A stretch of DNA of 64,000 nucleotides from Schlesneria sp. (GTDB taxonomy: Bacteria > Planctomycetota > Planctomycetia > Planctomycetales > Planctomycetaceae). Each line of letters starts with the position of its first letter. Within the stretch, counting starts at the first letter, position 1. The DNA is taken from positions 62,001 through 126,000 of the forward strand of contig JAQGHU010000046.1 in assembly GCA_028291515.1 (NCBI GenBank), in the 5' to 3' direction. Shown piece by piece: positions 6,013 through 59,259 of the stretch. The notes beneath the pieces were generated by a model. That model was not told the DNA's origin and searched no databases. It saw only the letters and a program-made list of their open reading frames with translations. The translations under genes and the position numbers were made by a program.

Positions 6013-6087
<75 letters not shown>

Positions 6088-7477: not shown

Positions 7478-7479
7478 AG

Positions 7480-7824: not shown

Positions 7825-7829
7825 AGGGT

Positions 7830-9728: not shown

Positions 9729-10379
9729 TCAGTCGTTACGTTCGACCATTGGTTCTTCTTTCGGCATTCCCGCGAGTTTCTTCTTCAAGGCGGCGATCAT
9801 GCCGATGGACTGTTGTTTGGTGACTACACCATTTGCGACAAAATAGTGCTCGTAGAGCTTGAGCTTATCCGTTTTCGTCTGGATGCAGAGTTCGTCGATC
9901 AGAACGAGATCGTCATGGGACGCGTCAGTTGCGGCATTGGCCGTCGTCAGGGCGGCAGCAGGCTTAGCGGGAGCTGGCTTGGCGGTTTCCTTCGTGTTGT
10001 CGACCGTGTCGGCATCCTTCGTGTCGTCGATGCAGAACAGACCGTTGAGAGCGTACTTCCGAGCGTAGGATGACGCTGCACCTGTGATCTGTGCTGAATC
10101 CATGCCCTTCTTCTCTTCAGACTCGCGAGCGAAGGCGTCAGTAAAGATTGCCGTATCGCCATCGCGAATTTCTGCGGTAGCCTTCACGTAAACGCGGCCA
10201 CCGACTTCGACAATCGTGTCTGTCAGAGTGACGATACATCCTTGTGCATGAGCGAGAGGCTTCACGGCTTCGAGAATGTCCTCACAGGATCGGTAGTTGT
10301 AATTGCCGAAGGTGTTTCGCTGTCCTTTGGGAGCTTTCAGTTCAGATTGGATGGTCTTGAGTTTTTCGTGGATCGGCAT
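9729..10379 (-). CDS. ERF-family single-strand annealing protein
   Basis: 216 residues. The N-terminal core is typical of the ERF superfamily: a helix (HEKLKTIQSELKAP), NYNYRSCEDILEAVKPLAHAQGCIVTLTD, then an AEIRDGDTAIFTDAFARE segment and ITGAASSYARKYALNGLFCIDD. ERF proteins anneal complementary single strands and let the phage genome recombine or circularise. A flexible Ala/Thr/Pro linker at about 135-160 leads to a C-terminal helical region. Start 10379 is chosen because it precedes the domain directly. It acts with the RusA-like resolvase encoded at 17.4 kb. Confidence 0.88.
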   Translation of the reverse strand: MPIHEKLKTIQSELKAPKGQRNTFGNYNYRSCEDILEAVKPLAHAQGCIVTLTDTIVEVGGRVYVKATAEIRDGDTAIFTDAFARESEEKKGMDSAQITGAASSYARKYALNGLFCIDDTKDADTVDNTKETAKPAPAKPAAALTTANAATDASHDDLVLIDELCIQTKTDKLKLYEHYFVANGVVTKQQSIGMIAALKKKLAGMPKEEPMVERND

Positions 10380-10401
10380 AAAGCAGTGGGGAATTGAATT
10401 G

Positions 10402-10839
10402 TCAGGAAGGCATGATGTCCACGACGGAGATTCCTTCGTCGCGGATGCAGGAGCGGAGATCCCGCTTGTAGGTCGGGTTGTCCTTGATGAAGGTCTCAAG
10501 GCTCTTCTGAGTGACAGTGGCGACGATCATCAGGTTGTCGATATCGCCGTCCATCGCGTGAAGAACAGCATTGGTATCAACAGACCGCTTGGCACGAGTC
10601 TTAAGAACGAATCCAGGCACGTCAGTGATCTTCTCGGCATTTACTGCTTTGAGAACCGCGTCACGGTCCATTTCGTATTCTTCACGAGAGTCAGAGACCC
10701 CGGCGATCATCGCGGTCATTTGTTCTTGCAGAGCGAGATAGGCGGCAGACTCTGTGATCTGCTTGCGTTGTTCGTCCTCGCGTTTGATTGCGGCGTAGGA
10801 GACACGCAGGTCAGCCAAGTGCTGTTCGAGTTCCGTCAT
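10402..10839 (-). CDS. Helical phage protein upstream of the ERF gene
   Basis: 145 residues. The N-terminal 60 residues form a likely coiled coil (EQHLADLRVSYAAIKREDEQRK). The C-terminal part (DVPGFVLKTRAKRSVDTNAVLHAM...TFIKDNPTYKRDL) is alpha/beta. It occupies the position where many siphoviruses carry Gp157- or Gam-like recombination partners, but I could not confirm either family from the sequence. Confidence 0.6.
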   Translation of the reverse strand: MTELEQHLADLRVSYAAIKREDEQRKQITESAAYLALQEQMTAMIAGVSDSREEYEMDRDAVLKAVNAEKITDVPGFVLKTRAKRSVDTNAVLHAMDGDIDNLMIVATVTQKSLETFIKDNPTYKRDLRSCIRDEGISVVDIMPS

Positions 10840-17364: not shown

Positions 17365-17769
17365 TTGATTCTCCGCTTCACAGTTCCCGGTGCACCCGTC
17401 CCCTGGCAGAGAGCCAGACAGAACGGCAAGCGGTTCTTCACCGACCCGAAGGTTCAGGCATATAAGGACGAGGTCGCGATCCGGGCGAAAGCAGCCGGAG
17501 CCAAGCCCTTTGAATCGCCCTGCACGCTCGTCATCACTGCTGTGATGCCCATTCCCACCTCTTGGTCAGCCCGACGCAGGCAGGAGGCATTGGAAGGGCA
17601 AATCAAGCACACAGTGAAGCCGGATTGGGACAATCTAGGAAAAGGGATTAGTGACGCTCTCAACGGCGTCGCGTGGAAGGACGACAGTCAGGTCTACTGG
17701 TCGAATGTGAGAAAGACCTACGGAGAAAATCCGAGAACCGAGGTGACAATCAGCTACGACCAGTCATAA
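17365..17769 (+). CDS. rusA: RusA-family Holliday junction resolvase
   Basis: About 134 residues with a TTG start. The N-terminal FTVPGAPVPWQRARQNGKRFFTDPKV and the metal-binding KPDWDNLGKGISDALNGVAWKDDSQV motif (catalytic Asp residues) are diagnostic. RusA resolves four-way junctions during phage recombination and replication and pairs functionally with the ERF protein. No ATG lies near the N-terminus in this frame. Confidence 0.9.
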   Translation: MILRFTVPGAPVPWQRARQNGKRFFTDPKVQAYKDEVAIRAKAAGAKPFESPCTLVITAVMPIPTSWSARRRQEALEGQIKHTVKPDWDNLGKGISDALNGVAWKDDSQVYWSNVRKTYGENPRTEVTISYDQS

Positions 17770-17809
17770 TCGGCGGCATCTCAATCGTTCTTCTCTTTCG
17801 GTGGCATCT

Positions 17810-18571: not shown

Positions 18572-19121
18572 TCGCGGGGTGTTCCCCGTCTGTCGTTTCA
18601 GCGTGCATCGCTAGAAAATGCTTTGAAAGGTCTGGGGCGATGTGTTCACTGAGATCAATCCCCGAAAGAGCATGGACTCCGGCCCACACGAACAGCACGT
18701 CCTGCGAGAGTGGATACTCTCGGTCATCGACCGTCACGCCCCTGTACCGGATATTCTGGATGACAAACTGTTCCCGATTCGTGTGAATCCACGAGAATGT
18801 CGCCAGATCCTTCTTCCAGTTCGGTTTCGCCCGAGGGAGGTATTTGACCTCGACGATCCCGATGACCTCCCGCGTGTTGCAGATCACGATATCGGGGAAC
18901 CGGAATTCGGGATTCACCTGACCGTCAAGAGCCTTCACTGTAGCTTTCAACTTCGGCTCGATGAACATGCGACGCGACTCGGGAAGAATCACATTCAACT
19001 TCCACCACAGAGAGGCTTGGAGACTCCGTTCCGAGTTGATCCGCTGACGATGATAGTCGTCCGTGATCGCACTCTGCCAAGCATCCTTGAGGTTCTGTCG
19101 CAGAAGGCCACGCCGGTTCAT
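18564..19121 (-). CDS. Putative PD-(D/E)xK-type nuclease-like protein
   Basis: 185 residues. FRFPDIVICNTREVIGIVEVKYLPRAK places an Asp and a Glu-x-Lys on adjacent strands, as in PD-(D/E)xK nucleases and Holliday-like folds. An upstream Trp/Glu-rich helix (SLWWKLNVILPESRRMFIEPKL) is typical of such families. It converges with and overlaps the end of the EVE/HNH gene by 8 bp. A defence role is plausible, but the catalytic residues need structural confirmation. Confidence 0.55.
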   Translation of the reverse strand: MNRRGLLRQNLKDAWQSAITDDYHRQRINSERSLQASLWWKLNVILPESRRMFIEPKLKATVKALDGQVNPEFRFPDIVICNTREVIGIVEVKYLPRAKPNWKKDLATFSWIHTNREQFVIQNIRYRGVTVDDREYPLSQDVLFVWAGVHALSGIDLSEHIAPDLSKHFLAMHAETTDGEHPAIR

Positions 19122-19134
19122 TATAAGTCCTTGA

Positions 19135-19147
19135 AAGTGTGTCACAC
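19135..19147. promoter_or_regulatory. Short palindrome upstream of the nuclease-like gene
   Basis: TGTGT and ACACA arms flank one central base, 15-25 bp upstream of the start codon at 19121. This placement suits a repressor operator. The boundaries are approximate. Confidence 0.3.
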
Positions 19148-20417: not shown

Positions 20418-20860
20418 CACCTTTGCCTTTCTTGAACTTGAATGCGGAGCCCTGCGGGGACTTTCACGTTCCGTTCGTTGTTGCTGCGAATTGTACCAGA
20501 GACAGTGAGAATTGGTGTTTCTCTTCCGTGATGGGAATTCTCGGTACGACATGCTCTCCCGCTTTCGCGTGAGTTGTCAGAATCGGTTCCGCCGCACCGT
20601 CCTGTAGGACAAGCGCAGAAGAGGGAAGGATCGAAAGCGTGTTCTGCCCGTTCTGTTGTTTCGCGTAGGCCAGTCATCGAGTGATGGAGCCGGTTCGGGG
20701 ACGCTCATTACCTGCTGGACTTTGAGTGCGATCCGAGGGCGTAGACCCAAAACGAGATGAAGGGGCGTTACTCCGTGAGAAACGGTAATCGGAACAATCT
20801 GCTTGCCGATACGAAGGGTGTTGGTATGCTGGTCCCGTCGTCTAAGCATCGACACCCTAC
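20418..20860. other. Unresolved region with two competing minus-strand frames
   Basis: About 440 bp. Two overlapping minus-strand frames are open: 20577-20855, which begins with a plausible beta-rich segment (LRIGKQIVPITVSHGVTPLHLVLG) but ends in an arginine-rich tail, and 20417-20677, whose end is beta-rich and coupled to the next gene. A single gene interrupted by a frameshift would explain both. Neither is called as a gene. Confidence 0.35.
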
Positions 20861-20861
20861 G

Positions 20862-20894
20862 CCCCTCTGAGCCAGAAAATCAAGAGGGGTGTTT
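20862..20894 (+). terminator. Hairpin followed by T run upstream of gene 20909
   Basis: CCCCTCT (20862-20868) pairs perfectly with AGAGGGG (20883-20889), followed by TGTTTT. It lies 15 bp before the start codon at 20909, so it could end an upstream transcript or act as an attenuator in the leader. Confidence 0.5.
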
Positions 20895-20908
20895 TCATTG
20901 GAGCCGTC

Positions 20909-21277
20909 ATGAGTGAAACAAACGGTGATGATCTGGCCGACCCCGCAGATGTGAAGCACATCATTGATCTCCGTCTATTCGAGGCGTTAAAGAAAGAGCT
21001 TCACGGAAGCACGAAAGAGAAGCTGGCGTTGCGGAAGGCATTGCTACTTCTCATTGCCATGTCAGTCGATGACTTGGGGGAGCCTGGGCGACGGTACATT
21101 GACTGGTTGCTAACCGAATTCGCACCGCTGGCCGACAGTTTCAGCAAGGAACACACTCATGATTTCATCGGTGAGAACTTCATTGCTCGTGTACTGGAAC
21201 ACAAAGGCGAACATCTGACTGTTGTTGTCCCAAAGTCACTCTTGGATGATCTGATGAAAGACCTTCTCGACAAGTGA
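20909..21277 (+). CDS. Hypothetical protein
   Basis: 122 residues, mainly helical (HIIDLRLFEALKKELHGSTKEKLALRKALLLLIAMSVDDLG) with a short beta segment near the end (GEHLTVVVPKSLL). It is a stand-alone gene between hairpins. No family is recognised. Confidence 0.55.
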   Translation: MSETNGDDLADPADVKHIIDLRLFEALKKELHGSTKEKLALRKALLLLIAMSVDDLGEPGRRYIDWLLTEFAPLADSFSKEHTHDFIGENFIARVLEHKGEHLTVVVPKSLLDDLMKDLLDK

Positions 21278-21331
21278 TTCTTCAGGCATCGTCCCTCCGG
21301 TTCTGCCCCTTCACTCACCGGAGAAGAAACG

Positions 21332-21529
21332 ATGGACCCAGATGCTTGCTGGAAGGAACTTGAAGAAGCCGTCAACACGGCAATGTGGGGAATCGCGATC
21401 GAACGAGCCGAGTCACTTCTCGAATGGCTCGCGAAGGATGGCTTTCCTCCGACTATTGGAGGCCGTCCGATCTTCGACCGGTTGGTTGCGAGAGCAACCT
21501 GTGAGGCAATCTCCGCCTGGGTGATGTAG
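21332..21529 (+). CDS. Small hypothetical protein
   Basis: 65 residues, helical with several Trp (CWKELEEAVNTAMWGIAIERAESLLEWLAKDGFPPTIGGRP). Followed by a terminator at 21536. No family is recognised. Confidence 0.5.
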   Translation: MDPDACWKELEEAVNTAMWGIAIERAESLLEWLAKDGFPPTIGGRPIFDRLVARATCEAISAWVM

Positions 21530-21535
21530 AACCTG

Positions 21536-21558
21536 CCCCTGTTTCGACAGGGGATTTT
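21536..21558 (+). terminator. Rho-independent terminator
   Basis: CCCCTGT and ACAGGGG close a TTCG tetraloop, followed by ATTTT. It isolates the preceding small gene from the methyltransferase gene. Confidence 0.75.
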
Positions 21559-21639
21559 CGGAATCCAAACCCGTCGATTGCTCCCCTGTACCGTTCCGGC
21601 AACAATGAATCCAGATCTGGGGATTGCAAAGGATGCACG

Positions 21640-22515
21640 ATGCCGACGAAGAAATTGTTTCAGGGACACGATGCGAGTTTTGACGTTCAGCCATTCAGCC
21701 GAAACGGACCACTGAAGCCGCTATTCTGCACGGATCACGGGGCACTCTTCGAAGGTGATTGCGTAAAGATTCTCGGCAAGCTCGCGGATGAATGTGTCGA
21801 CACGGTTTTTGCAGATCCTCCGTTCAACATCGGCAAAGAATACGGAACCAAGGTAAACGACAACCGCGAATCGACCGAATACTTGGAATGGTGTCATTCG
21901 TGGATTCTGGAATGTATCCGTATCCTGAAACCGGGTGGTTCGTTCTTCCTGTACAACATCCCGAAGTGGAACATCCAACTCGGGAATTTCATGATGGAGC
22001 AAGGACTCCACTTCCGAGACTGGATCACGGTCGACATCAAGTTCGGACTACCGCTCGCGGGACGCTTATACCCGAGCCATTACAGCTTGCTCTACTACAG
22101 CAAGGGCCGTCACAAGACGTTTCACAACATCCGCACACCGATTCAAACCTGCCGCCACTGCAAGGGCGAAGTGAAAGACTACGGCGGGCATCGCGACAAG
22201 ATGAATCCGAAGGGCGTGAATCTGACGGATGTATGGACAGACATTCCACCGGTCCGACATTGGAAGTTCAAAACGACAAAGCGGAAAGCCAACGCGCTCT
22301 CGACCAAACTCCTACAGCGGGTGATCCACATGAGTACCGATGCCGGCGATCTTGTGTTGGATCCATTCGGCGGCAGCGGGACCACTTATGCAGTGGCGGA
22401 GCGAATGGGCCGCAGGTGGATCGGGATGGATATGGAATCGACCGATGTCATCATCGAGCGAATGTCAGACGATGACCTGCACTACCACCCCACGACGGAC
22501 GTACTGGAAGTTTAA
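21640..22515 (+). CDS. Beta-class DNA methyltransferase of the restriction-modification pair
   Basis: 291 residues. Catalytic motif IV is DPPF (59-62) and the SAM-binding motif I is DPFGGSGT (241-248). Motif IV preceding motif I defines the beta class. Conserved blocks RILKPGGSFFLYN, LYPSHYSLLYYSKG, a CRHC segment and NLTDVWTDIPPVRH match a group of phage and bacterial site-specific methyltransferases. DPPF usually indicates N6-adenine methylation, but N4-cytosine enzymes can share it. The stop codon overlaps that of the convergent BamHI-family nuclease, so this enzyme presumably protects the nuclease target. Confidence 0.93.
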   Translation: MPTKKLFQGHDASFDVQPFSRNGPLKPLFCTDHGALFEGDCVKILGKLADECVDTVFADPPFNIGKEYGTKVNDNRESTEYLEWCHSWILECIRILKPGGSFFLYNIPKWNIQLGNFMMEQGLHFRDWITVDIKFGLPLAGRLYPSHYSLLYYSKGRHKTFHNIRTPIQTCRHCKGEVKDYGGHRDKMNPKGVNLTDVWTDIPPVRHWKFKTTKRKANALSTKLLQRVIHMSTDAGDLVLDPFGGSGTTYAVAERMGRRWIGMDMESTDVIIERMSDDDLHYHPTTDVLEV

Positions 22516-23120
22516 CGCAACGCCCTGCCGTCCGTTCCTTTGGGAATCAGGGGAACATCGTCGCTGAGTTCGTCGAATGAAACGACAACGACTTCGAGAA
22601 TCCCGTTCCGTATCGGGAGAGCCTTCCAGAGATCAGCGTAGGGCTCAAGTTCTTCCCAATTCCCGACTCGGTCAGTCAGATACTTATACAACTCACGTGT
22701 TGGCAGAATGAGCGTTCCGCTGATGAGTTTTCCTCGCATGAGATGTAACGCCATTTTATTCATCGCACGATGGCTCGATGAGATATTCCCTGTTTCCCAC
22801 TCGACGGCGACATTCCCATAACCGGTCTTCACCACAGCATCAAGCGCCCCTGGACTGGAACGGGACGTTGCGAGTTTGATCTTCAACTCCTTTTCCCATG
22901 AGTTTTTCAACTCTTCCCGAACCAAGTTCGCCGTCAACTGCTTGCGGATAGACGGAACGCCGTTGCCTTTCTTCTGAGGCCGGATTGTGAATTTGTCGCT
23001 TCCGGGTGGCCAGACGATTTTCCCGATTGCTTGCAGCACATCGTCGTGCAATCTTTCGCGTTCCACAGAACGTGCGAAATCCCCTGAATCAATCAGAGTC
23101 TCGACCTTCACGATCTTCAT
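22512..23120 (-). CDS. BamHI-family type II restriction endonuclease
   Basis: 202 residues, close to BamHI (213). Long blocks match BamHI as I recall it: the WP-x-x-S-K-x-FTI segment near residue 37, WETGNISSSHRAMNK (108-122), YLTDRVGNWEELEPY (147-161) and DVPLIPKGTDG (188-198). Catalytic residues are in place: Asp94 and Glu107-x-Glu109 correspond to BamHI Asp94 and Glu111-x-Glu113. BamHI cuts GGATCC; whether this enzyme does is inferred. The gene converges on the methyltransferase gene and the two stops overlap in TTAA. Confidence 0.92.
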   Translation of the reverse strand: MKIVKVETLIDSGDFARSVERERLHDDVLQAIGKIVWPPGSDKFTIRPQKKGNGVPSIRKQLTANLVREELKNSWEKELKIKLATSRSSPGALDAVVKTGYGNVAVEWETGNISSSHRAMNKMALHLMRGKLISGTLILPTRELYKYLTDRVGNWEELEPYADLWKALPIRNGILEVVVVSFDELSDDVPLIPKGTDGRALR

Positions 23121-23146
23121 GTAGTGCCTGTTGACGGCACGGACCG

Positions 23147-23164
23147 GAGGCGTAGTCTCGCCTC
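23147..23164. promoter_or_regulatory. Inverted repeat upstream of the restriction gene
   Basis: GAGGCG and CGCCTC arms with a 6-base centre, about 30-45 bp upstream of the nuclease start. A regulator could bind here to delay nuclease expression after entry into a new host. No controller-protein gene was found next to it. Confidence 0.35.
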
Positions 23165-23313
23165 GGCGGGATCGTGTCGTGAGCCATTGGTGTGTTGCCA
23201 GTGCTCCCGATCGAGGGGCAATCTCCCCAGATCAACCTCATTCGGGAACGGACGATCCCGCCATTGTCCAGACGCATCAATAGATTGCAACGCAAGCAGT
23301 AGGATGGGTTAGA

Positions 23314-23343
23314 TTGACATCCTCACGGACGACTGCGCAGAAT
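23314..23343 (+). promoter_or_regulatory. Candidate promoter for the gene at 23425
   Basis: TTGACA (23314-23319) and CAGAAT (23338-23343) with an 18-bp spacer in a 300-bp divergent gap (23121-23424) that has no gene. Confidence 0.4.
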
Positions 23344-23424
23344 GATTGCGTGCGACGGAAGTCGCTTTGTTTGATTCCGCCCCTGGCGGATACTCAACCG
23401 GCCCCTCGGGCCAAAGGATTTGTG

Positions 23425-23916
23425 ATGGCTACCATCAACGAACGCGCTGAACATGCGGAGTCCGTCCTCTTCGAGAGGTACGACGAACTAAACGCTCTGT
23501 GGCAGAAGGCCGAGAAAGAATTCACGGCTCACCACATCCCGGACACGGTATCTTACGAGTATTACCGTCCAACTTGCTCTGAAGAAGCTGCCGAAGATCC
23601 AGTGGTTAAACTCTTGGGTCTGTCGAAAAAGAACGGCGCGTGGCGAATTTGTCACGGTGAGTATGACTATCAAGCCCCCTACGGCGAGGTTGACTGGACA
23701 CCAATCACCGAGTGTTCTGCAACTCTTCGAGTCTACTCGACGCAGTGGCTTCCGAAACTGCGGGAAGCAATCGTTGCGGCTTCGGAACGCTTCATTCCCC
23801 GAGTGGAAGAGGCTATCGAACGCCTGCGAAAAGAACTGTCCGTAGAACCAGAGGTCTCTATCGAGCAACTCTTGGCTGAACGTGCCAAGTTGAACGGGCG
23901 ACATCCGAAAAAGTGA
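23425..23916 (+). CDS. Hypothetical protein
   Basis: 163 residues. A helical N-terminus (NERAEHAESVLFERYDELNALWQKAEKEF), a central Trp/Tyr-rich beta region (AWRICHGEYDYQAPYGEVDWTPITECSATLRVYSTQWLPKL) and a C-terminal coiled coil. Start 23425 gives the coherent domain; a longer frame is rejected. It has its own promoter and terminator. No family is recognised. Confidence 0.6.
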   Translation: MATINERAEHAESVLFERYDELNALWQKAEKEFTAHHIPDTVSYEYYRPTCSEEAAEDPVVKLLGLSKKNGAWRICHGEYDYQAPYGEVDWTPITECSATLRVYSTQWLPKLREAIVAASERFIPRVEEAIERLRKELSVEPEVSIEQLLAERAKLNGRHPKK

Positions 23917-23923
23917 TCGCTCT

Positions 23924-23953
23924 GCCCCTATCCGATTGCGGGTAGGGGCTTTT
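23924..23953 (+). terminator. Rho-independent terminator
   Basis: GCCCCTA (23924-23930) pairs with TAGGGGC (23943-23949), followed by four T residues, directly after the gene at 23425. Confidence 0.75.
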
Positions 23954-24015
23954 GTTCTTCTCAATCTCATCAATGATTTGCTCATCGAGGTAAGGCACGA
24001 GTACGCTTCCGTACC

Positions 24016-24315
24016 GTGACCCTTGATGAGGCATTCGCGGCCGTCTCTCACGCCTTCCCCAGCACTGCCGATTGGCAGGGAAGACATTTCGTGCAGGCAA
24101 ACCGCAACGGCGTCACGATCATCGAAGTGAAGAAGAGCAGCTTCCGAACGATTTCAACGTGTCCCCACTGCGGACAGACACGAGACGAGAAAGACAGCCG
24201 GTTCTTCTACTGGCTGATCTGGGAAGGCCAGTCGAAGCTCATCCATGCATCTCTGACATCAAGGTTCAAGTCTCTGCGAACGATAGGGGAATCAATCCCC
24301 TCACTCTTACCATAG
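24016..24315 (+). CDS. Hypothetical protein
   Basis: 99 residues with a GTG start. VTLDEAFAAVSHAF and NGVTIIEVKKSSF are followed by CPHCG, so one zinc-binding pair is present without an obvious partner. The final third (SLTSRFKSLRTIG) is basic. No family is recognised. The following 190 bp to the terminase gene holds no gene. Confidence 0.45.
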   Translation: MTLDEAFAAVSHAFPSTADWQGRHFVQANRNGVTIIEVKKSSFRTISTCPHCGQTRDEKDSRFFYWLIWEGQSKLIHASLTSRFKSLRTIGESIPSLLP

Positions 24316-24504
24316 CCCCGCCATACACAGCCCGCTTCCGCTTCTCGGCGTCCCGATACGAGCAAACAGGCCTCGCAGGAATCTCGGTCGCTCGTTTGGA
24401 CGGTTCCTGCGTGCCCACTCTCTGCCGGACGACGCGTGCCCCCGTTGGCAGCTCGCCGGTAAGAGAGGTGGCGGGGATGTCCGGTCAGGTGTAGCCTCGC
24501 GCTG

Positions 24505-24993
24505 ATGACCAGATCGAGAAAACCAGCCAAAGGAAGAAAGCCTGCCCTCACACCTAAGCTCAAGAAACTCGCGTTGCTGCTGCCCGCTGTGGCGGAAGGC
24601 ACGATGACGAAGAAAGCCGCAATGCTCCAAGCGGGATACTCGGAATCGTCTTCAAACCAACAATCGTCTGCGATAGGAGCGATTAGGAACAACACAGTGA
24701 TGCAGGAGGCATTGAGAAAAGCCGGTGTCACCGAAGAGGCAATCGCCCAGGGCGTGAAGGAAGGGATGGAAGCAACTCGATTGTTCTCCGCCAACTTCGA
24801 ACTACATGAGGCACCTGATTTCCATGCCCGTCATGCGTTCGTGAAGACAGGTGCGGAACTACTTGATGCCTTCCCGTCCAAACACATCGACGCTACTGTG
24901 ACGAATCTTGTCGGGTATAACGAACTCGACGCTGCTCCGAAGGCAACATCGCCGGAGGATGCTAGAAAGATTGCGGAGAAACAAAATGAATGA
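24505..24993 (+). CDS. Terminase small subunit
   Basis: 162 residues. An N-terminal basic tail precedes a DNA-binding helix-turn-helix (MTKKAAMLQAGYSESSSNQQSSAIGAI) followed by the FHARHAFVKTGAELLDAFPSKHID block. This arrangement is typical of TerS proteins, which recognise the pac or cos site and load the large subunit. It begins the packaging module. The large subunit gene lies 1.65 kb downstream, separated by four small genes. Confidence 0.8.
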   Translation: MTRSRKPAKGRKPALTPKLKKLALLLPAVAEGTMTKKAAMLQAGYSESSSNQQSSAIGAIRNNTVMQEALRKAGVTEEAIAQGVKEGMEATRLFSANFELHEAPDFHARHAFVKTGAELLDAFPSKHIDATVTNLVGYNELDAAPKATSPEDARKIAEKQNE

Positions 24994-25276
24994 AGATGGA
25001 CCGCTTTTCCAGGATTTTGGAGGTAGTGAGCAATTGCTTGCGTTTATCAAGGAAAGGTCAGATGACATTGAAAAAGTTGTCATTCCTCAGATGGCAAATC
25101 TCGCAATCACAAGAAGTGGAATTCCCGTCGCCGAGACTGACAAAGTTGGAATGATTATCCATATGATCAGTCACCGCTTCCTCATCGTCCCTTCTGATGC
25201 CGAACTTCTCCTGAACGATGGCATTCTGAATCGTATGAATATCAAAATCGAGTTGTGGCATCCGAACAAGATATAG
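24986..25276 (+). CDS. Hypothetical protein between terminase genes
   Basis: 96 residues, starting 8 bp before the TerS stop. Mixed helical (DDIEKVVIPQMANLAITRSGIPVAETDKVGMIIHMISHRF). It is less GC-rich than the flanking phage genes. No family is recognised. Confidence 0.5.
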   Translation: MNEDGPLFQDFGGSEQLLAFIKERSDDIEKVVIPQMANLAITRSGIPVAETDKVGMIIHMISHRFLIVPSDAELLLNDGILNRMNIKIELWHPNKI

Positions 25277-26650: not shown

Positions 26651-28240
26651 GTGCATCCCGAAGACGCGAAGCGCATCGGCAACTGGATGTGGAGAATCAC
26701 CCACCTCTACAAGATCCAGACCAAGAAATCTCAGAAGATCATTTTTGATCCGAAGCCGATTCAGAAACTGCTGATGCGGTACATGGCTCTGTGGTACCTC
26801 ATCTTGGTCCTGAAAGCACGTCAGGAAGGAGTCTCGACGTTTTTCCTGTTGTTCCATCTGGACCGCACGCTGTTCACTCCGAACTGCACCACGGTCATTC
26901 TCGCCCACAGACGTGACTCCCTTCAGAAGCTCTTCCGCATCATCAAGATCGCGTATGAATCGTGTCCTGAGCGTATTCGCTTGGCTGATGGCAGGATCTG
27001 GGTGAAGCCCAAAGCGAAGTACGACACGAAGAACGAGCTGTATTTCGAGGGACTGGATTCACGCATCTATGTCGCTCTCGAAGTCCGCTCTGACACCGTT
27101 CACGGTCTGCATATCTCCGAATGGGCGCACATCAAGAACGCTGATGATGTCCTGACCGCCACGCTTGGCGCAGTGGTTGAAGGCGGTGTCATTACAGGGG
27201 AATCAACGGCCAACGGTGAAGGAGGATCGTTCTTCGAGGAATGGGAGAACAAGGATTCGGACTTCCTGAAACTGTTCTTCGGCTATCAGCATGATCCCGA
27301 TTATTGTGATGCGATCGAGGGCGAGGCAACATTCCGAGCCACACTGACGGCAGAGGAAGAGAACCTGCTCACAGTTCAGGACATGAAGCTCGGGAACATC
27401 GCATGGAGACGCAGACAACTCCGCATGAAATCCCGCAGGAAGAAGTTCAAGCAGGAATTTCCCTGTACTGCTGATGAAGCGTTCCTCACATCCGGTGCGT
27501 CACCATTCAACCGCGAGAAGATCAATGACTGGCCAACACGGGCACCGGTCGAGACCACGATGGAAGGGATGCTGGAGTATTGGGTCAAGCCGATCAAGGA
27601 CAGACGCTACATTCTCTCCGTCGACTGTTCATCAGGTGCTTCAGGCACTCAGAAGCCCGCAGGGACACAGGAGGAGAAGGGTGGATCGGACTTCACCTCA
27701 ATGGGAGTGTGGGATCTGACCACCTGGCAAAAGGTCGCTCAGTTCAGAGGGCGTTACCCTTATGGTAAGGCCCATCACATCGTCTACAAGCTCGGCAGGG
27801 AATACAACGACGCCTATGTCGCCATTGAGACGTTCCCGTCCGGCCACGGCATGACCGTCTGCAACAATCTCGTGAACAACGTGGGCATCGAGGACGAGCA
27901 GTATCCGCAGTGGATGATCCACACCACCACATCGATCGACAAGAAGACACAAGAGCGGAAGCAGCGGTGGGGATGGGAGACGAACGAGCGCAGCAAGACG
28001 CTGATGGTCGACCACATGACCGATCTGATCGAGGATGAGGAGATCATCGTCTACTCGGAGACAGCCAAGAAAGAATTCAAGCGGTTCATCATCAACGACA
28101 AAGGTCAGTATCAGGCGATGGAGGGATACCACGACGACATCGTCATGGAATCCTGCATTGCTATGTATCTCGTGAAAGAGGCTCTCGCGGCCGGCAGACG
28201 CACGTTCACGAAAGAGGAATTGGGTTTGGGTTCGATGTGA
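26651..28240 (+). CDS. Terminase large subunit
   Basis: 529 residues with a GTG start. The N-terminal ATPase has the terminase-type Walker A KARQEGVST (55-63) and a Walker B-like HISEWAH (154-160). The C-terminal RNase-H-like nuclease shows the ILSVDCSSG strand with its catalytic Asp, a VAIETFPSG segment and the YHDDIV motif near residue 497. It cuts concatemeric DNA and drives it into the prohead through the portal. The portal gene follows 12 bp downstream. Confidence 0.92.
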   Translation: MHPEDAKRIGNWMWRITHLYKIQTKKSQKIIFDPKPIQKLLMRYMALWYLILVLKARQEGVSTFFLLFHLDRTLFTPNCTTVILAHRRDSLQKLFRIIKIAYESCPERIRLADGRIWVKPKAKYDTKNELYFEGLDSRIYVALEVRSDTVHGLHISEWAHIKNADDVLTATLGAVVEGGVITGESTANGEGGSFFEEWENKDSDFLKLFFGYQHDPDYCDAIEGEATFRATLTAEEENLLTVQDMKLGNIAWRRRQLRMKSRRKKFKQEFPCTADEAFLTSGASPFNREKINDWPTRAPVETTMEGMLEYWVKPIKDRRYILSVDCSSGASGTQKPAGTQEEKGGSDFTSMGVWDLTTWQKVAQFRGRYPYGKAHHIVYKLGREYNDAYVAIETFPSGHGMTVCNNLVNNVGIEDEQYPQWMIHTTTSIDKKTQERKQRWGWETNERSKTLMVDHMTDLIEDEEIIVYSETAKKEFKRFIINDKGQYQAMEGYHDDIVMESCIAMYLVKEALAAGRRTFTKEELGLGSM

Positions 28241-28252
28241 TATGCTTGGTCC

Positions 28253-29764
28253 ATGCCGTTCTCAACAAAAGAGTTTCCGACCCGAGCGGAACTCAAGCGG
28301 GTGCAGGATGAACACGAGTACTTCAAGTTCTACGATTCCGAGGTTCTCGATCCCGATGGGACGACTGATCGTGCGAAGTTCCGTCTGAAAGAGTTCTTCG
28401 AGAACGACAGCAAGAAAGCCAAGATCCTCGACATCGCTCTGAACGTTGCCCCTGTCATAATTGATGCCGGGACTGATTTCGCTTTCGGTCGTTTACCCAC
28501 CGTTGAAATCGAAGACAGCGGCGACAGTAACGGTGGAACGCAGAAGCAGATCGACGAGATCGTGGTTCGCAACAGATTGATGCACCGCATGCGGGACTCC
28601 TCGACCCTCTTTCAAGGCGTTGGACACTCGCAGTTCAAACTCTTCGCCGAAAACGGCAAAGCCCTCGTCAATGAGCTGCCCTATCACTACTGGTTCCCGA
28701 ACTGGGAAGGGGTGCCGGTTGACCAGGATACGAAGAACGTCCGCATTGTCTCGTATCTGAGCAAGTTCGACGGATCGATCGAAACGAAATACATCTACAT
28801 CGAGGACTACTACCTCGATTCAGCGAGAGAGAACAAGCTGACGATCGCCCGTTCACTCTGGGAAGACCAAGGTGCAAAGATCGGCGGACAGGTTCCGATC
28901 ACCACGCTCTCGAACCTTAAAGCGCTGGGTGATGCAGATCCCAGCAACAGCCTGACGATCCTCGAAATAACTGAGTTCGATTTCCTTCCGTTCGTGAAGG
29001 TCGATGTCCGCAAGAACGTGATGCGGCGCGAAGCACAGTCGATTCTGAAGAAGTGCAGGCCGCTTTTGTACGAGTTGAACGATCGTCTGACGCAGGTTTC
29101 CATCCAGTTCGTCAAACACCTCAATGCGATTCTGATGATTCCCAACGGAGCGGTTGTACGGAAGAAGGATGGGTCGATTGACCACACGAAGCTCGACGTT
29201 CTGCTTGCGAATCCGGGCGAAGATGCGAAGTACGTCACCAATGAGAACCCGCTGATCGAGCAGGCGTTCGTTCACATCGAGAAATGCCTCAGAGCGATCG
29301 CAAAGGAAACCCAGACACCGGACTCGTTCCTTGTCGAAGATGAAAAGGGTGGTGTTGAAACGGCTGAATCTCTCCGCACCAGGCTTTTCCTGTTCATCAG
29401 CCGCATCGAGCGGTATCAGCAGATCTATGAAGAGGCGATTCTCGACACGATCCGCAAGTGTCTGAAGATCGAAGGGGTGGAGAACGTGGACGCGCTTCCC
29501 ATCACAGTAACGTTTGAATCCTCCCTTCCGAAGGACTGGCAGCATGATGTCGAAGTCTGGGGCAGTGCCAAATCAATGGGACTTGCCTCAAAGGAAACAG
29601 CAGTTTCTCGCTTCCAGGGCATCAAGGGGCAGGAGCTGGAGGATGAGCTTGTCAAGATTGCCGACGAGGAACAACAGCAGCAGGAGAGCATGCTCAAGCT
29701 GATTGATCAGCAGAACCAAGATCCGAAAAGTGATCCAAATGCACCGCCGCCGAAAAAGGCGTAA
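28253..29764 (+). CDS. Portal protein
   Basis: 503 residues, the usual size. It contains the SPP1/HK97-type portal sequence pattern: an N-terminal region rich in charged helices, a central ILEITEFDFLPFVKVDVRKNVM segment, a stem region with YELNDRLTQVSIQFVKHLNAI and DKGG-like IEKCLRAIAKETQTPDSFLVEDEKGGVETAESLR. Twelve copies form the ring at the packaging vertex. The identification relies on position after TerL and on these motifs. Confidence 0.85.
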   Translation: MPFSTKEFPTRAELKRVQDEHEYFKFYDSEVLDPDGTTDRAKFRLKEFFENDSKKAKILDIALNVAPVIIDAGTDFAFGRLPTVEIEDSGDSNGGTQKQIDEIVVRNRLMHRMRDSSTLFQGVGHSQFKLFAENGKALVNELPYHYWFPNWEGVPVDQDTKNVRIVSYLSKFDGSIETKYIYIEDYYLDSARENKLTIARSLWEDQGAKIGGQVPITTLSNLKALGDADPSNSLTILEITEFDFLPFVKVDVRKNVMRREAQSILKKCRPLLYELNDRLTQVSIQFVKHLNAILMIPNGAVVRKKDGSIDHTKLDVLLANPGEDAKYVTNENPLIEQAFVHIEKCLRAIAKETQTPDSFLVEDEKGGVETAESLRTRLFLFISRIERYQQIYEEAILDTIRKCLKIEGVENVDALPITVTFESSLPKDWQHDVEVWGSAKSMGLASKETAVSRFQGIKGQELEDELVKIADEEQQQQESMLKLIDQQNQDPKSDPNAPPPKKA

Positions 29765-29773
29765 TCTTGAGTC

Positions 29774-29965
29774 ATGTGGTTCTTCAATCTCGACAGGATC
29801 AGTGAGCTGATGGATGAAGAGGGAGTGCAGAAGGCGGCAAACGCCTTGCTTCGCCTTCCATCCGTTCCCGTGCTGAAGGCTTTAGCAGTGGTCTGGACCG
29901 TTGCTCTCGTCATGGTCTTCACGATGCTACTGACTATTCGGTTCGCCCTTTCGATCCCGCTGTGA
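29774..29965 (+). CDS. Small membrane protein in the head operon
   Basis: 63 residues. A C-terminal hydrophobic span (VLKALAVVWTVALVMVFTMLLTIRFALSI) follows an amphipathic helix. A membrane protein between portal and MuF genes is unusual. It overlaps the next gene by 4 bp (GTGA). Confidence 0.5.
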   Translation: MWFFNLDRISELMDEEGVQKAANALLRLPSVPVLKALAVVWTVALVMVFTMLLTIRFALSIPL

Positions 29966-30807
29966 ACGTCGGCACACGCCTTCAGCGGCACGGACTCAAT
30001 GACGACGAGATCATTCGTCTCTTCAAGAATGCCGAGAAGCAGGTCATCGATATCATCGAACGTGCAGACCCGAACAGGCCCTTCGCTGTTTACCGAACGT
30101 CTCACCTGCGGGAAATCGAACTCATCATTCTGCAGTTGGAGCGAAAGCTCGGTCGCGAAACAACGCGGACAATCGACACTGTCTATTCAGCAGGAGCGAC
30201 AGAAACAGCAGACGCCATCAAAGCGATGGATGAGAAACAATTCAAATTCAGCTTCTCCGGCGTCAATCAAGAAGCCGTCGCCGTCCTGACGGGCGGAGCA
30301 CTGGCTGAATACGGAACAACCATCCGAGCGATTCGGGCGAACGGTGCCAAAGCTCTCTTCGATAAGAAGAAGTTGAACGACCGGATCATAGAGGGAGTGA
30401 TTCAGGGATCGAGCGTCTCACGCACAACGAGTCAGCTTGTGCAATCGTTCAAACGTGACGGTATCACCGCTCTGGTCACATCGAACGGCCGCAATCTGAA
30501 GGTGGAACCCTATTCCAACACCTTGGTCCGCTCTCAGACCATGAGTGCCTACAACCTGGGGGCGAAGGCCACGATGCTCGACTCAGGCAGACGCTTCGCG
30601 AAGATCGCCAAACTCCGTCCTGATCTGGACGGTCCCGACATCTGCAACAAGTTCGAGGATCAGGTCTACATCGACCTCAAAGATCCGACTCAATTGCCGC
30701 CGTACCATCCGAACTGCCGTCACGTTCTGATTCCGGTGAGCTTTGCGGAGCTGAAGGCGAATCGGCCGGATCTTTATAAATCGGCTTTGAACTACTTTCA
30801 AAATTGA
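29962..30807 (+). CDS. MuF-like head morphogenesis protein
   Basis: 281 residues with a GTG start. The C-terminal block (DICNKFEDQVYIDLKDPTQLPPYHPNCRH) is the diagnostic MuF motif, with the PPYHPNCRH end. The N-terminal half is helical. Such minor capsid proteins are packaged with the DNA and may carry toxins or act in ejection; no extra toxin domain is present here. The position after the portal is canonical. Confidence 0.85.
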   Translation: MNVGTRLQRHGLNDDEIIRLFKNAEKQVIDIIERADPNRPFAVYRTSHLREIELIILQLERKLGRETTRTIDTVYSAGATETADAIKAMDEKQFKFSFSGVNQEAVAVLTGGALAEYGTTIRAIRANGAKALFDKKKLNDRIIEGVIQGSSVSRTTSQLVQSFKRDGITALVTSNGRNLKVEPYSNTLVRSQTMSAYNLGAKATMLDSGRRFAKIAKLRPDLDGPDICNKFEDQVYIDLKDPTQLPPYHPNCRHVLIPVSFAELKANRPDLYKSALNYFQN

Positions 30808-39413: not shown

Positions 39414-41954
39414 GTGCCAAACAATGAAAGGATCGGCGGCGTTGAGTTCGAGGCTTCTGTTGATACGACCAAGCTGGAGAACAGCGGGCAAAAAGTTGAT
39501 GCAGCTTTCACCAAACTCGAACGGTCTACACGCCAGACACAGAAAGCCCTCGACTATACCGAAAAATCGGCAGGATTCCTCGGTGCGACGTTCACGCGAC
39601 TGACCGGCGCGTTCACCGCTGCCAACATCGCCGCCACCGTGATAACACGCGGCATCCGGCTCCTCGCCACGACGTTCATCGACTCCATCAAGAACGCGGC
39701 CAATTTCGAGACGATCCTTGCTCGTATTTCCACGGTCGTTGAAGGAAGCACGAAACCGCAGATAAAGGCTCTCGGTGATCAAGTCATCGAAATGTCGAAG
39801 CGGTTCCCGAAATCCAAAGAGGAGCTTGGAGTCGGCCTCTACAACATCCTTCAGTCAGGCGTCGAAGACACGTCTGACGCAATGAAGATCTTGGAGATTT
39901 CGACGAAAGCAGCCATCGGAGGCGTCACGGATGTGGGGACGGCGACCAAAGTCGTGACCAACATCATGGGTGCCTACAACATTACCGCTGATGAAGCGGC
40001 GAAAGTCATGGACTCTGTTTTCGTCGGAGCGCAGAAGGGAAAGGCAGAGTTCTCTGATCTCGCCGGATCGATGGGAAACGTACTGCAATCTGCAGCCCAG
40101 CTTGATGTCGGCATCCCTGAAGTAGTAGCGGCTATCGAAACAATGGTGAATGCCGGTCTCTCCGCAGACGAGGCATCCACTTCATTGAACGCGTTCTTCA
40201 CGTCCGTCCTCAATGCTTCCAAAGGAACGGGAGACGCTGCGGATCTGGCCAAGAAGCTGAATCTTGAATTCGACAGCACAGCACTGCGCACGAAGGGACT
40301 CCGGAAGTTCATGGAGGACCTGTCCACCGCCGTTGGGGATGACGAGGTCTCGATGCAGATTCTCAGCGGAAACGTCCGCGGATTCAGAGCTGCAGCTTCT
40401 ATTGGAGGAAAGGGTGCTGATTTCTTCACCAGCACCTTGGACGCGATGGGAGACTCAGCAGGTGCTGTTGATGCTGCGTTCAACAAGATGGCGGATACGA
40501 CAGAAGCAAACTTCACTCTGGCCACAAATGCAGCATCGAACGCAGCCGGCACGTTCGGCGGTGAAACACTTCCTGCCGTAAACAGGGCACTCGAACAGTT
40601 CACCGGCTTCATGAACGCTGCTACACCTGTCGCCGCGGCTCTCGGAACGGCCGTCGGATTCATGATCGACGCTATCAGAATCGGATTGAGCGAATTACCG
40701 AAACTGATTCCGTTCATGGATCAGGCACTGCAAATCGCGAACGCCATCCAGTTAGCGATGAATCCGAAGGTAGACCAATCGGGTGTGTTCACGGGAGCAA
40801 TTACATCGACTGGACCCGCACCCAAGACAGTTCCGACTGCTCACCCGCATACGTCCGGATCAGGTGGAGGATCGGGTGACAAAGCCCAGAAGGCATGGGA
40901 CGAAATGCTTTCGGCCTTCAAAGAACAGGCAGACGCAAACAAGGACAATCTTCAGGCGCGGAAAGACGAGCTGATGCTCCGTCAGAAGCTCGGCGTCCTC
41001 ACGAAAGCGGAGAGCACGGAACTAGACCGTATAAACAACCGTCTCGAATTCAGTGACGACAAGATCAAAGACATGACTGACAACTGGGACGACCTCAACG
41101 GAAAGATCAAAGATTCAAAGGACAGGCTCAAAGACCTTCAGCAGCAACTCGACGACCTGAACAAGGATTCCTCAGATGATCGTGTCTCGAAGCTCATGGA
41201 TCTTCTTCGCGAGAAGGCCCAGCTTGAACAGTTGATCGGATCTTCACAGGGAGGACTGACGGGCGACCAGAGCAAACGACTGGGAGACATTCAGGACATC
41301 GTCAATTCCGCACCGCAAGCCGAAGTTAATCAGGCCGGTGCGAAACTCGGCCAGAATCCCGGTCTCGACAATCCAATTCTGCAGAGCCTTCAGGAGGAGT
41401 CCGACAAGAGGAAGGTCATCCAAGATCAGATCGACAAGGAGACGCGGAATCTTAAGGATCTCGAAGCGCAAGGTGTCACCGCACAGCAGCAGATCGTACA
41501 GGCGGTGAATGACCGACAGGTGCAACAGGATAAGACGTTCAAGCTGATCGAAGACCGGCAGACCGATCACGTCAACAAAACGATCGCGGAGTTCAACCGT
41601 CTGAAGGCAGCACTATCCGGAACACCGACGATGCCAACACCCGCATTTGCAACTGGCGGTCCAGTTGTCGGAGCAGGGACAGGGACAAGTGATTCCATCG
41701 CGGCACGGCTGAGCAATAATGAACACGTAATCACATCATCAGAAGTCAGACAGGCAGGCGGACACGCCGGGATCTTTGCCATCCGGAACATGATCCGAAG
41801 GGGAGAACTTCCCATCCAGCGATTTGCCACCGGAGGTCCTGTCACGAACGATCATCGGCGAAACGCCACTTATCACATCACCAACCACGGCCGAGCGGCT
41901 GAGGTCTTCGCAGATCCTCGGCGTGCAAACTGGCTTTCCCGCACTTCATTCTGA
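39414..41954 (+). CDS. Tail tape measure protein
   Basis: 846 residues with a GTG start. The TP901-type core is clear: IEFEASVDTTKLENSGQKV-like start, AANFETILARISTVVEGS, LQSGVEDTSDAMKILEISTKAAIGGVTD, a VVAAIETMVNAGLSADEASTSLNAFF block and a hydrophobic segment near 400-440. A long coiled-coil tail with basic and Gln-rich helices follows, and the C-terminus (ITSSEVRQAGGHAGIFAIRNMI) is compact. Its length sets tail length, suggesting a tail of about 125 nm by the usual 1.5 angstrom per residue rule. Confidence 0.92.
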   Translation: MPNNERIGGVEFEASVDTTKLENSGQKVDAAFTKLERSTRQTQKALDYTEKSAGFLGATFTRLTGAFTAANIAATVITRGIRLLATTFIDSIKNAANFETILARISTVVEGSTKPQIKALGDQVIEMSKRFPKSKEELGVGLYNILQSGVEDTSDAMKILEISTKAAIGGVTDVGTATKVVTNIMGAYNITADEAAKVMDSVFVGAQKGKAEFSDLAGSMGNVLQSAAQLDVGIPEVVAAIETMVNAGLSADEASTSLNAFFTSVLNASKGTGDAADLAKKLNLEFDSTALRTKGLRKFMEDLSTAVGDDEVSMQILSGNVRGFRAAASIGGKGADFFTSTLDAMGDSAGAVDAAFNKMADTTEANFTLATNAASNAAGTFGGETLPAVNRALEQFTGFMNAATPVAAALGTAVGFMIDAIRIGLSELPKLIPFMDQALQIANAIQLAMNPKVDQSGVFTGAITSTGPAPKTVPTAHPHTSGSGGGSGDKAQKAWDEMLSAFKEQADANKDNLQARKDELMLRQKLGVLTKAESTELDRINNRLEFSDDKIKDMTDNWDDLNGKIKDSKDRLKDLQQQLDDLNKDSSDDRVSKLMDLLREKAQLEQLIGSSQGGLTGDQSKRLGDIQDIVNSAPQAEVNQAGAKLGQNPGLDNPILQSLQEESDKRKVIQDQIDKETRNLKDLEAQGVTAQQQIVQAVNDRQVQQDKTFKLIEDRQTDHVNKTIAEFNRLKAALSGTPTMPTPAFATGGPVVGAGTGTSDSIAARLSNNEHVITSSEVRQAGGHAGIFAIRNMIRRGELPIQRFATGGPVTNDHRRNATYHITNHGRAAEVFADPRRANWLSRTSF

Positions 41955-56917: not shown

Positions 56918-56944
56918 GAGCCACCAAGGACGGTGGCTCTTTTT
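56918..56944 (+). terminator. Rho-independent terminator between excisionase and integrase
   Basis: GAGCCACC (56918-56925) and GGTGGCTC (56932-56939) with a six-base loop, then five T residues. It ends rightward transcription, and its T run abuts the integrase stop. Confidence 0.85.
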
Positions 56945-57935
56945 ATTTTGCTTTGGCCAGTTCCTTGCGCAAATGGTCATGGGCTTTCATGAGATGACCA
57001 TAAACGCGTTCAAGCATCCGCGTTGAGCTGTGGCCTAACAGCGTTGCCACAGTCAAGCTGTCGATCCCCGCAGTCAAGGAACGATGAGCGAAGGCATGCC
57101 TGAAATGCGTCAGGCAATAGCGGAAGTGTACCGCCGCTTCGAGCTTTTCAAATCGCTGGCGGACGAGATCTTTGGTGAAAGCCGTTCCACTCCGGGTTTG
57201 GAATATGAGTCCGTTTCCCATTCTGGCCTTCACGATTTTCAGAGCTTCAGGAGGCAGATAGATCACCCGTGCCCGCTTTTTGCCTTTCGCGAGTCTCGCC
57301 GGGATGACGATCCGCTTCTCTTTCAGTTCAACGAACTCGTCAAGAATAATGCATGCTTCTTGCGCCCGTGCCCCCGTCATCCAGATGAATCTGATGAGAT
57401 CCTTGAAGTTCTCGTCCGTGATCGCAGCCAAAAGTTTCTCATAATCTTTCTTCGATACGACGTGATCACGGTTCGTCTCTTCGGGGAGCTTCATCGCAGC
57501 GATGGGAGAGAAGAATTTGCCGTCATTCGCTGCTTTGCGGAAGGCGGACTTGATGCACCGTAATGCCGCCCGTCGCGAGGGAAGGGTGGGCCACCTCTTG
57601 TTGACCCAATCCCGCACTTCGTCCCGAGTCAGCTTGTCCGCTCGTTTCATCCCGTGCGTCTGTTGGAACGGTTCAAGATACTGGAGATACCAATCCAGAG
57701 TCGTCTCGGCGTTCTCTTCCTTGATGAAGCACTTGAACTCATCCACGACCTCGGCCACGTACATCCAGTCGCGGTCGACCGGCAGTGGTTCAGGCTCTTC
57801 GCCTGCCATTAGTAGATGGAATTGCCGGTCTGCCTCTGCTTTGTCGGCACCCAGACGGTGAGTCTCGCCCTTGATCTGCACGTACCATTCACCACGGGAA
57901 GCACGGAACCACGGTTTCGGGGATCGCCCTGCCAT
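56943..57935 (-). CDS. int: Phage tyrosine integrase
   Basis: 330 residues from ATG 57935, which has GGAGG five bases upstream. The catalytic residues of tyrosine recombinases are visible: Arg in TGARAQEA, His-x-x-Arg in LTHFRHAFAHR, His in LLGHSS and Tyr in RVYGHL near residue 313. The core-binding domain is helical (TTLDWYLQYLEPFQQTHG). It catalyses integration at tRNA-Ala. The frame stays open upstream through attR to 58244, but that extension is antisense to the tRNA and is not used. Confidence 0.93.
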   Translation of the reverse strand: MAGRSPKPWFRASRGEWYVQIKGETHRLGADKAEADRQFHLLMAGEEPEPLPVDRDWMYVAEVVDEFKCFIKEENAETTLDWYLQYLEPFQQTHGMKRADKLTRDEVRDWVNKRWPTLPSRRAALRCIKSAFRKAANDGKFFSPIAAMKLPEETNRDHVVSKKDYEKLLAAITDENFKDLIRFIWMTGARAQEACIILDEFVELKEKRIVIPARLAKGKKRARVIYLPPEALKIVKARMGNGLIFQTRSGTAFTKDLVRQRFEKLEAAVHFRYCLTHFRHAFAHRSLTAGIDSLTVATLLGHSSTRMLERVYGHLMKAHDHLRKELAKAK

Positions 57936-58017
57936 AAATCCTCCATTCTCTGCCAGTTTTGGCAGACAATGATTCGCAGAAGTCCAGTAAACATCAATAC
58001 ATCTACTGATTTCCGCT

Positions 58018-58065
58018 TTGCATGGCATGCAAGAGGTCATCGGTTCGATCCCGTTATCCTCCACT
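58018..58065 (+). repeat. attR: right 48-bp copy of the attachment core
   Basis: Identical to 6040-6087. It lies 83 bp upstream of the integrase start on the minus strand, so the phage attP would lie next to the integrase. Confidence 0.92.
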
Positions 58066-58179
58066 TGTTCATAAGCAGTTGCTGAATCGATAGTTACGAA
58101 TACCTTCCCAACGCGGGAAGTGCGGCAAAACCAAAGGGAATCGGTGCAAATTTGCACCAAAACCTCCGGAGTGCCGTAG

Positions 58180-59259
58180 ATGTCTCGACCTCGTAACACG
58201 ATTCCAAAATTCAGCGTTGATCGTAATGGCCGTGCCTTCACCAAGGTTCACGGCTGTTTCATTTCTTTGGGTCGCAGCGACGATCCCCAATCTCGCATCC
58301 GCTACGCTGCCGTGCTGACAGAGCAGGCGAGCGGTCGACCTGCCGTCGTGACTCCCAAGGCTGCGGTTACCCTCAACGAGCTGTTCCTCAAATACGTCAC
58401 CGATGAGCTGCCGCGGTTCTCTTCATCCGAGCGGCATTGCCAGATGACGGTTATCCGAATGGTGCGCCAACTTTTTGGTTTCGTACCCGTTGCTGAGTTC
58501 GGACCGCTCAAACTTCGCGCAGTTCGGGACGCGATGGTCGCTGGTGACCCTAACCAAAAAGACAGGGCAGGAAAGCCGAACCCGAGGAAGCCGTGGTCGC
58601 GAAATACGGTTAACCGACAAGTGAAACGGCTACGTGCGATCATCCGCTGGGGCGTCTCATGGGAGATGGTTTCTTCGACTGTCGTTGATGCGTTGGATAC
58701 CGTCGCAAGCCTCACCGCCGCCGAGACGACTGCGGCTGAGTCGATCCCGCGCGTCGCAGTGCCTGCCGTGGCGTTCCACGCTGTACGTGGGGTTCTCCGT
58801 GAGAAGCATCGCGACATGCTCGATCTGTTAAGCCTGACTGGCGCGCGACCCGGCGAATTGCTCAAATTGACAACCGGGATGATCGATCGGAGTGGGCCAA
58901 TCTGGCGGTGCGAGCTCACCCAGCACAAGACAACTCATCGCGGCAAAACCCGCGTGCTGTTCTTCAACGAAGCCGCTCAGTTGATCCTGCGGAAGTATCT
59001 GCAGGCGGATCCTGACGCCAAACTGCTCAAGATGCGGCGCGACAACTTCGGACACGTCATTCAACGCGCTTGCGATCGTGCAAACGTCGCTCGATTCTGT
59101 CCGCATCAGATTCGGCACACTGTCGCTACCAAGTTGGTTGACGAGATGGGCGAAGAGTTCGCGCAGAGACTGCTGGGACATTCGAAAGCAGCAATGACGA
59201 GAGGGTATTCCAAGGGCGCTGAGAAGAAAGCACAGGAAGCTGTGAAGCGGCTGGGGTGA
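58180..59259 (+). CDS. int: Tyrosine integrase of the second element
   Basis: 359 residues. Catalytic residues: Arg in LTGARPGE, a Lys-like THRGKT segment, His-x-x-Arg in PHQIRHTVATK and the His and Tyr of LLGHSKAAMTRGYSK. The N-terminal part (RYAAVLTEQASG...LNELFLKYVTDELPRFSSSE) is a core-binding domain of the planctomycete type. It is unrelated in sequence to the phage integrase beyond the catalytic core. The start 58180 precedes the first domain directly. Confidence 0.9.
   Translation: MSRPRNTIPKFSVDRNGRAFTKVHGCFISLGRSDDPQSRIRYAAVLTEQASGRPAVVTPKAAVTLNELFLKYVTDELPRFSSSERHCQMTVIRMVRQLFGFVPVAEFGPLKLRAVRDAMVAGDPNQKDRAGKPNPRKPWSRNTVNRQVKRLRAIIRWGVSWEMVSSTVVDALDTVASLTAAETTAAESIPRVAVPAVAFHAVRGVLREKHRDMLDLLSLTGARPGELLKLTTGMIDRSGPIWRCELTQHKTTHRGKTRVLFFNEAAQLILRKYLQADPDAKLLKMRRDNFGHVIQRACDRANVARFCPHQIRHTVATKLVDEMGEEFAQRLLGHSKAAMTRGYSKGAEKKAQEAVKRLG

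Follow-up and report, generated by a model that had tools for sequence, protein, structure and literature searches.

A prophage in a Schlesneria genome encodes an intact endonuclease of the BamHI family together with a convergent amino-methyltransferase, and we consider it likely that the two form a complete BamHI-type Type II restriction-modification pair, which an integrated temperate tailed phage carries as cargo and which is predicted to mark and cut GGATCC. The window, by which we mean the whole stretch of 64,000 nucleotides analysed here, contains a commonplace bacterial defence system of Type II in a prophage, which is a less usual although not unique location for one. It adds a prophage example to a family met mostly in cellular genomes in the present survey, has a tail-to-tail layout with a short methyltransferase that is one of two common layouts in the surveyed loci, and provides a phage in which the presence of a restriction enzyme goes together with loss of the enzyme's target site.

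The gene pair and the prophage that carries it

The two genes, which we refer to as M and R respectively, are positioned as follows.

21640..22515, plus strand: likely cognate amino-methyltransferase (M), 291 aa with a short N-terminus; PF01555, PADLOC MTase_II
22512..23120, minus strand: BamHI-type restriction endonuclease (R), 202 aa; PF02923, OkrAI/BamHI by sequence and fold

As read in the window, the R open reading frame has an ATG start and 202 codons without an internal stop. The first-pass annotation had placed it in the BamHI family, and this is borne out by the PF02923 (BamHI) profile, which matches R well above its cut-off of 22.8 bits (E 2.4e-49, 167.5 bits, profile positions 1–156 of 157) and is its sole Pfam match at E 0.001; a PF02923 search of the entire host genome returned one place, R itself. 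Searches of PDB sequences aligned R 1–202 with OkrAI 1–194 (E 6.7e-47) and also matched BamHI (E 8.6e-26). An AlphaFold2 model of R (mean pLDDT 91.7), for which 22 sequences from the window and the loci were aligned, is predicted to resemble OkrAI most closely among PDB folds (TM 0.88, 42% identity), followed by BamHI (TM up to 0.83, 31% identity). A BFVD fold search with the model gave no match at E 0.001 or better.

Residues were mapped by aligning 91 homologues (OkrAI and 90 locus sequences, among them that of the window), with a BamHI fragment as a ruler. Glu78, Asp94, Glu107 and Glu109 of R fall at BamHI positions 77, 94, 111 and 113, which we take to be the active site, and Asn112, Ser114, Asp150, Arg151, Asp197 and Gly198 fall at positions 116, 118, 154, 155, 196 and 197, which we take to be those for recognition; all ten residues are also the same in OkrAI. 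The Asp94 and Glu-x-Glu residues claimed earlier are therefore present, Glu78 is also kept, and none of the four acidic residues differs from BamHI. BamHI Val58, Lys61 and Lys89 are replaced in R by Pro, Arg and Ser (Arg59, Ser89). OkrAI is described as a BamHI isoschizomer in the available portions of two papers (PMC9416302; PMC4081073). Because the ten residues match both BamHI and this isoschizomer, GGATCC is the expected target of R, which is probably another BamHI isoschizomer of modest practical value. A new or shifted specificity, for which R had been put forward as a candidate, is not suggested by these data and was rejected in view of the conservation of all six recognition positions.

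The adjoining convergent gene, which the first-pass annotation missed, likely encodes the partner of R. M matches PF01555 (N6/N4 amino-methyltransferase; E 2.9e-45) and the PADLOC model MTase_II (Type II methyltransferase; 2e-109), has the motifs DPPF (59) and DPFGGSG (241), and shares 54% and 57% identity with the methyltransferases that lie next to BamHI homologues on plasmids of Desulfocapsa and Geobacillus, respectively. The stop codons of M and R, which meet tail to tail, overlap by 4 bases (22512–22515), and PF01555 is found in one other gene of the host genome, on another contig. From its sequence and position M is the likely cognate methyltransferase of R, and with M alongside, the reading of R as a solitary nuclease was rejected. 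M.BamHI methylates cytosine at N4. Having R and M as adjacent but separate genes is the arrangement of a Type II restriction-modification system, and the window pair is of the kind lacking a helix-turn-helix controller upstream of R: no controller-type gene was found within 500 bases of R, and when 12 controller stretches from eight relatives were searched against 20500–25000, nothing scored below E 0.14.

The pair lies within 52.0 kb bounded by a 48-bp exact repeat (6040–6087 and 58018–58065), with the following features.

6040..6087, plus strand: attL-like 48-bp repeat, at the 3' end of tRNA-Ala(GGC) (6013–6086)
9729..10499, minus strand: ERF-family protein (PF04404, E 7.6e-40)
17365..17769, plus strand: RusA-like resolvase (PF05866, E 7.4e-32)
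26651..28240, plus strand: terminase large subunit (phrog_2, E 2.3e-24)
28253..29764, plus strand: portal protein, SPP1 gp6-like (PF05133, E 2.4e-20; the family's only match in the genome)
29962..30807, plus strand: minor head protein (phrog_4611, E 7.2e-23)
39414..41954, plus strand: tail tape-measure protein (phrog_1533, E 1.1e-45; PF10145, E 6.3e-32)
56943..58244, minus strand: prophage integrase (PF00589, E 3.2e-13; longest open reading frame)
58018..58065, plus strand: attR-like copy of the 48-bp repeat, exact

A weak major-head match and a primase-polymerase domain are also encoded, and R is located 3.5 kb ahead of the terminase gene. The integrase reading frame as given overruns attR, and its true start is probably inside 58018. 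Integrase, att-like repeats, terminase, portal and tail genes together identify a temperate tailed phage, and the earlier placement of R inside one stands; judged from its sequence, this prophage example of a restriction-modification pair is apparently intact. The attribution to a planctomycete host also fits: PSD1, a family that marks planctomycetes, has 70 matches, versus none in 14 control genomes. A terminase search of viral contigs gave 78 loci at 21–24% identity, too distant to name the group to which the phage belongs.

The attR region is overlapped by a second integrase reading frame (58180–59259). Another copy of the att core, the third, has 2 mismatches and is located 43.8 kb further on (contig C31, 163806–163851), near another weak integrase match; tandem elements are apparently integrated at one tRNA-Ala gene. 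At 16342–16952 in the same prophage, a PIN-domain protein (PF01850, E 1.5e-12) is encoded after a small reading frame with no Pfam match, an arrangement resembling that of a VapBC toxin-antitoxin pair. The 17801–19145 region encodes an HNH protein (PF01844, 4e-6), the HNH part of which weakly resembles McrA (E 0.007–0.015), and then, on the other strand, a protein with a PD-x(n)-ExK-like motif and no Pfam match; these are possibly further nucleases beside the restriction-modification pair.

Relatives in cellular genomes, plasmids and phages

An alignment-based scan of one genome per species (84,980 species) identified 185 loci encoding R relatives, the best 80 of which were kept, and later counts rest on those 80. 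With the plasmid loci L002 and L003, seven viral contigs and the window, these make up 90 surveyed loci; the Priestia plasmid locus (L004) is included in alignment A1 only, and a second Geobacillus plasmid record is outside the 90. R matches occur in 4 of 72,556 plasmid records. Labels taken from record titles assign the kept 80 loci to 15 phyla, four being labelled Planctomycetota (L010, L015, L018, L019), and among 392 sampled genomes of the window's phylum PF02923 was found in one, the window's own. The BamHI family is wide yet thinly spread, and the earlier view that homologues are known mainly from Bacillus and a few other bacteria does not hold.

A relative of M is present within the fetched DNA in 81 of the 90 loci, in convergent (45), divergent (32) or tandem (4) layouts, and the other nine have no M above 200 bits there. 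In three of the 77 convergent or divergent loci (L021, L047, L035) M is over a kilobase further off than usual. Among the convergent loci, 8 of 45, including the window, show the exact 4-base overlap of R and M. Controller-like genes are found near the R start in 28/32 divergent, 10/45 convergent, 2/4 tandem and 5/9 M-less loci; the 10 convergent instances are among the 44 loci other than the window. Five of the M-less loci (L030, L034, L044, L053, L056) have R and a controller-like gene; in some of these the contig stops close to R, and others may rely on a different methyltransferase. In convergent loci M is short, at 275–369 aa in 44 of 45 (L027 has 413). In divergent loci it measures 387–423 aa in 29 of 32; the three that depart from this are L035 (290), L020 (cut by the contig end) and L022 (incomplete extension of the reading frame). 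A quick tree was made without L077 and L023, which are fragmentary, and with OkrAI and BamHI included, giving 90 rows. In it the window R clusters with 17 other rows (16 convergent, 1 tandem) with 97% SH-aLRT support, on a rather long branch (0.7). Its highest identity is 57–59%, to a Nitrospira locus.

Neither a tblastn search of 50,697 annotated phage records with R nor single-sequence searches of viral contigs with R and with M gave a match. An alignment-based search of IMG/VR identified seven contigs with R, and all seven have M. Twenty chosen reading frames from six of these contigs were scanned for gene content, L094 being outside the scan. L091 encodes a terminase, portal and major head protein, and L093 an integrase, terminase and portal, with an R identical to that of L094; tail proteins were recognised on L089, and a primase together with a Psu-like protein on L088; L092 gave nothing beyond weak matches, and the two reading frames tried on L090 gave none. 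A prophage as a new setting for the family is therefore not sustained, as L091 and L093 provide at least two other clear examples of the BamHI-type pair in phages.

Near-identical R proteins with the same R–M spacing are seen in L088, an IMG/VR contig, and in L040, L041 and L048, from Salmonella, Photorhabdus and Citrobacter. L088 has a 296-aa reading frame between M and R, with the primase and Psu-like genes coming after, and a locus of this type is probably cargo of a P4-like satellite; P4-like satellites carry defence genes. The spring phage record MW202647.1 (L005) contains a partial M relative at 7406–7894 (57% over 114 residues), which is either left over from such a pair or belongs to a split gene. 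The Bacillus prophage H2 reportedly encodes a BamHI-specific methyltransferase.

The available portion of one survey (PMC4176335) reports that restriction-modification systems are rare in prophages of 2261 prokaryote genomes, with Type II over-represented there, that 831 phage genomes have 9 such systems, and that 2827 prophages have 717 solitary methyltransferases as against 15 solitary endonucleases. Among the matches listed in our literature search, which covered titles and abstract openings, with subscription journals mostly outside its scope, there was no paper on a prophage-borne BamHI-type pair. A complete pair of this type in a prophage is uncommon but not unexpected.

GGATCC in the prophage and the use of the pair

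The prophage has one GGATCC in 51,978 bases, compared with 15.8 expected from a Markov model of shorter words and 13.0 at host density. Across 57 prophage genes (by simple prediction) there is one instance against a codon-shuffle mean of 12.8, with none of 300 shuffles as low.

22359..22364, no strand assigned: the prophage's only GGATCC, in the M gene, in the codons of LDP

Only 9 of 80 relatives' M genes hold a GGATCC, and its position inside M was rejected as a family feature. Host DNA has 90 sites with 124.6 expected (360 kb, from 18 of 20 fetched stretches, the other two belonging to the neighbouring element), and the neighbouring integrated element has 10 with 13.3 expected. The 52-kb prophage (6040–58017) has no copy of four other palindromes (CTCGAG, GAGCTC, CAGCTG and GACGTC), for which 11–20 occurrences are expected, and its 6-base palindromes as a whole reach 0.63 of the expected number, versus 0.86 in the host. 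CCATGG and GTGCAC are also rare in the prophage, and the host too has low counts of GTGCAC and CAGCTG. Because the four other palindromes are equally absent, loss of GGATCC was rejected as proof of self-restriction; the phage has seemingly encountered several restriction specificities, and the absent or rare palindromes are perhaps a record of restriction pressures on the prophage. The seven viral contigs with R together have, in the parts fetched, 14 GGATCC against 25.9 expected, and 82 non-viral loci have 155 against 286, which is the same ratio, with small counts per contig.

We favour a conventional role for the pair, in which M would mark GGATCC in both host and prophage DNA of the lysogen, and R, expected to act as a homodimer with two metal ions as in BamHI, would cut unmarked G^GATCC of incoming DNA. 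Other phages and plasmids would thereby be excluded, and loss of the prophage would be penalised, which amounts to addiction. Several observations count against this explanation: the lack of a controller-type gene upstream of R, the long branch of the window R, the rarity of such systems in prophages as given in the available portion of PMC4176335 together with the absence of R from the annotated phage records, and the depletion of GGATCC, because a fully self-methylating phage would not need it.

An alternative that accepts the same gene identities but differs in use is that the pair acts mainly during infection, with R directed at competing phages or at the chromosome, still unmethylated, of a cell that has just been infected, and the phage being spared chiefly by loss of sites. 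The near absence of GGATCC from the prophage by all three measures, when the neighbouring integrated element keeps most of its expected number, is consistent with this, but the depletion may reflect restriction by many hosts, as the other missing palindromes suggest, a methyltransferase is present, and the GGATCC ratio of the viral contigs is no lower than that of the non-viral loci; we regard this alternative as unlikely. An elaboration, for which we see only a slender chance, is offensive use with two layers of self-protection, methylation and near-total GGATCC loss, where a cut at the sole site, in M, would break the protector first and could constitute a self-timing switch. It is similarly doubtful that M alone matters, protecting phage DNA against BamHI-type hosts with R as a silent passenger: the preponderance of solitary methyltransferases in prophages and the rarity of complete systems there (PMC4176335, available portion) are in keeping with such a role, but R is full length with intact catalytic positions.

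That R has the BamHI fold with another recognition sequence, such as that of BstYI, is more improbable still. BstYI recognises RGATCY and, with BglII, comes directly after BamHI in fold similarity to the R model, but these matches are far weaker (TM 0.48–0.61, 10–16% identity) and the six recognition positions are as in BamHI and OkrAI.

Comparison with known systems

OkrAI (PDB 3odh) is the closest relative of R in the PDB, with 41–45% identity over a full-length alignment, the best-matching fold, and active-site and recognition positions in common. It differs in sitting among mostly divergent-layout systems (support 85–86), whereas the window R is among convergent ones. BamHI itself (PDB 1bam, 2bam) shares the fold, Glu77/Asp94/Glu111/Glu113 and the six recognition positions, but is only 30–36% identical and has lysines where R has Arg59 and Ser89.

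The Desulfocapsa (L002) and Geobacillus (L003) plasmid loci encode homologous R (50% and 37%) as well as M proteins, but there M is divergent from the controller and R and is longer (417 and 414 aa), in contrast to the short, convergent M of the controller-less window pair. More similar are six convergent pairs from Nitrospira and Planctomycetota (L008, L009, L010, L014, L015 and L018), with R 49–57% and M 59–63% identical, and with a short M tail to tail within 16 bases as in the window. The flanks of L010, L015 and L018 differ from those of the window pair: the 34 reading frames examined there matched 24 families (10 of them without description), none of which is described as structural or integration-related. 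The IMG/VR phage contigs L091 and L093 resemble the window in having R and M beside terminase and portal genes, but their portal proteins belong to other families, their R proteins are 41–42% identical, and the L093 pair has a divergent layout with a controller, unlike the window pair.
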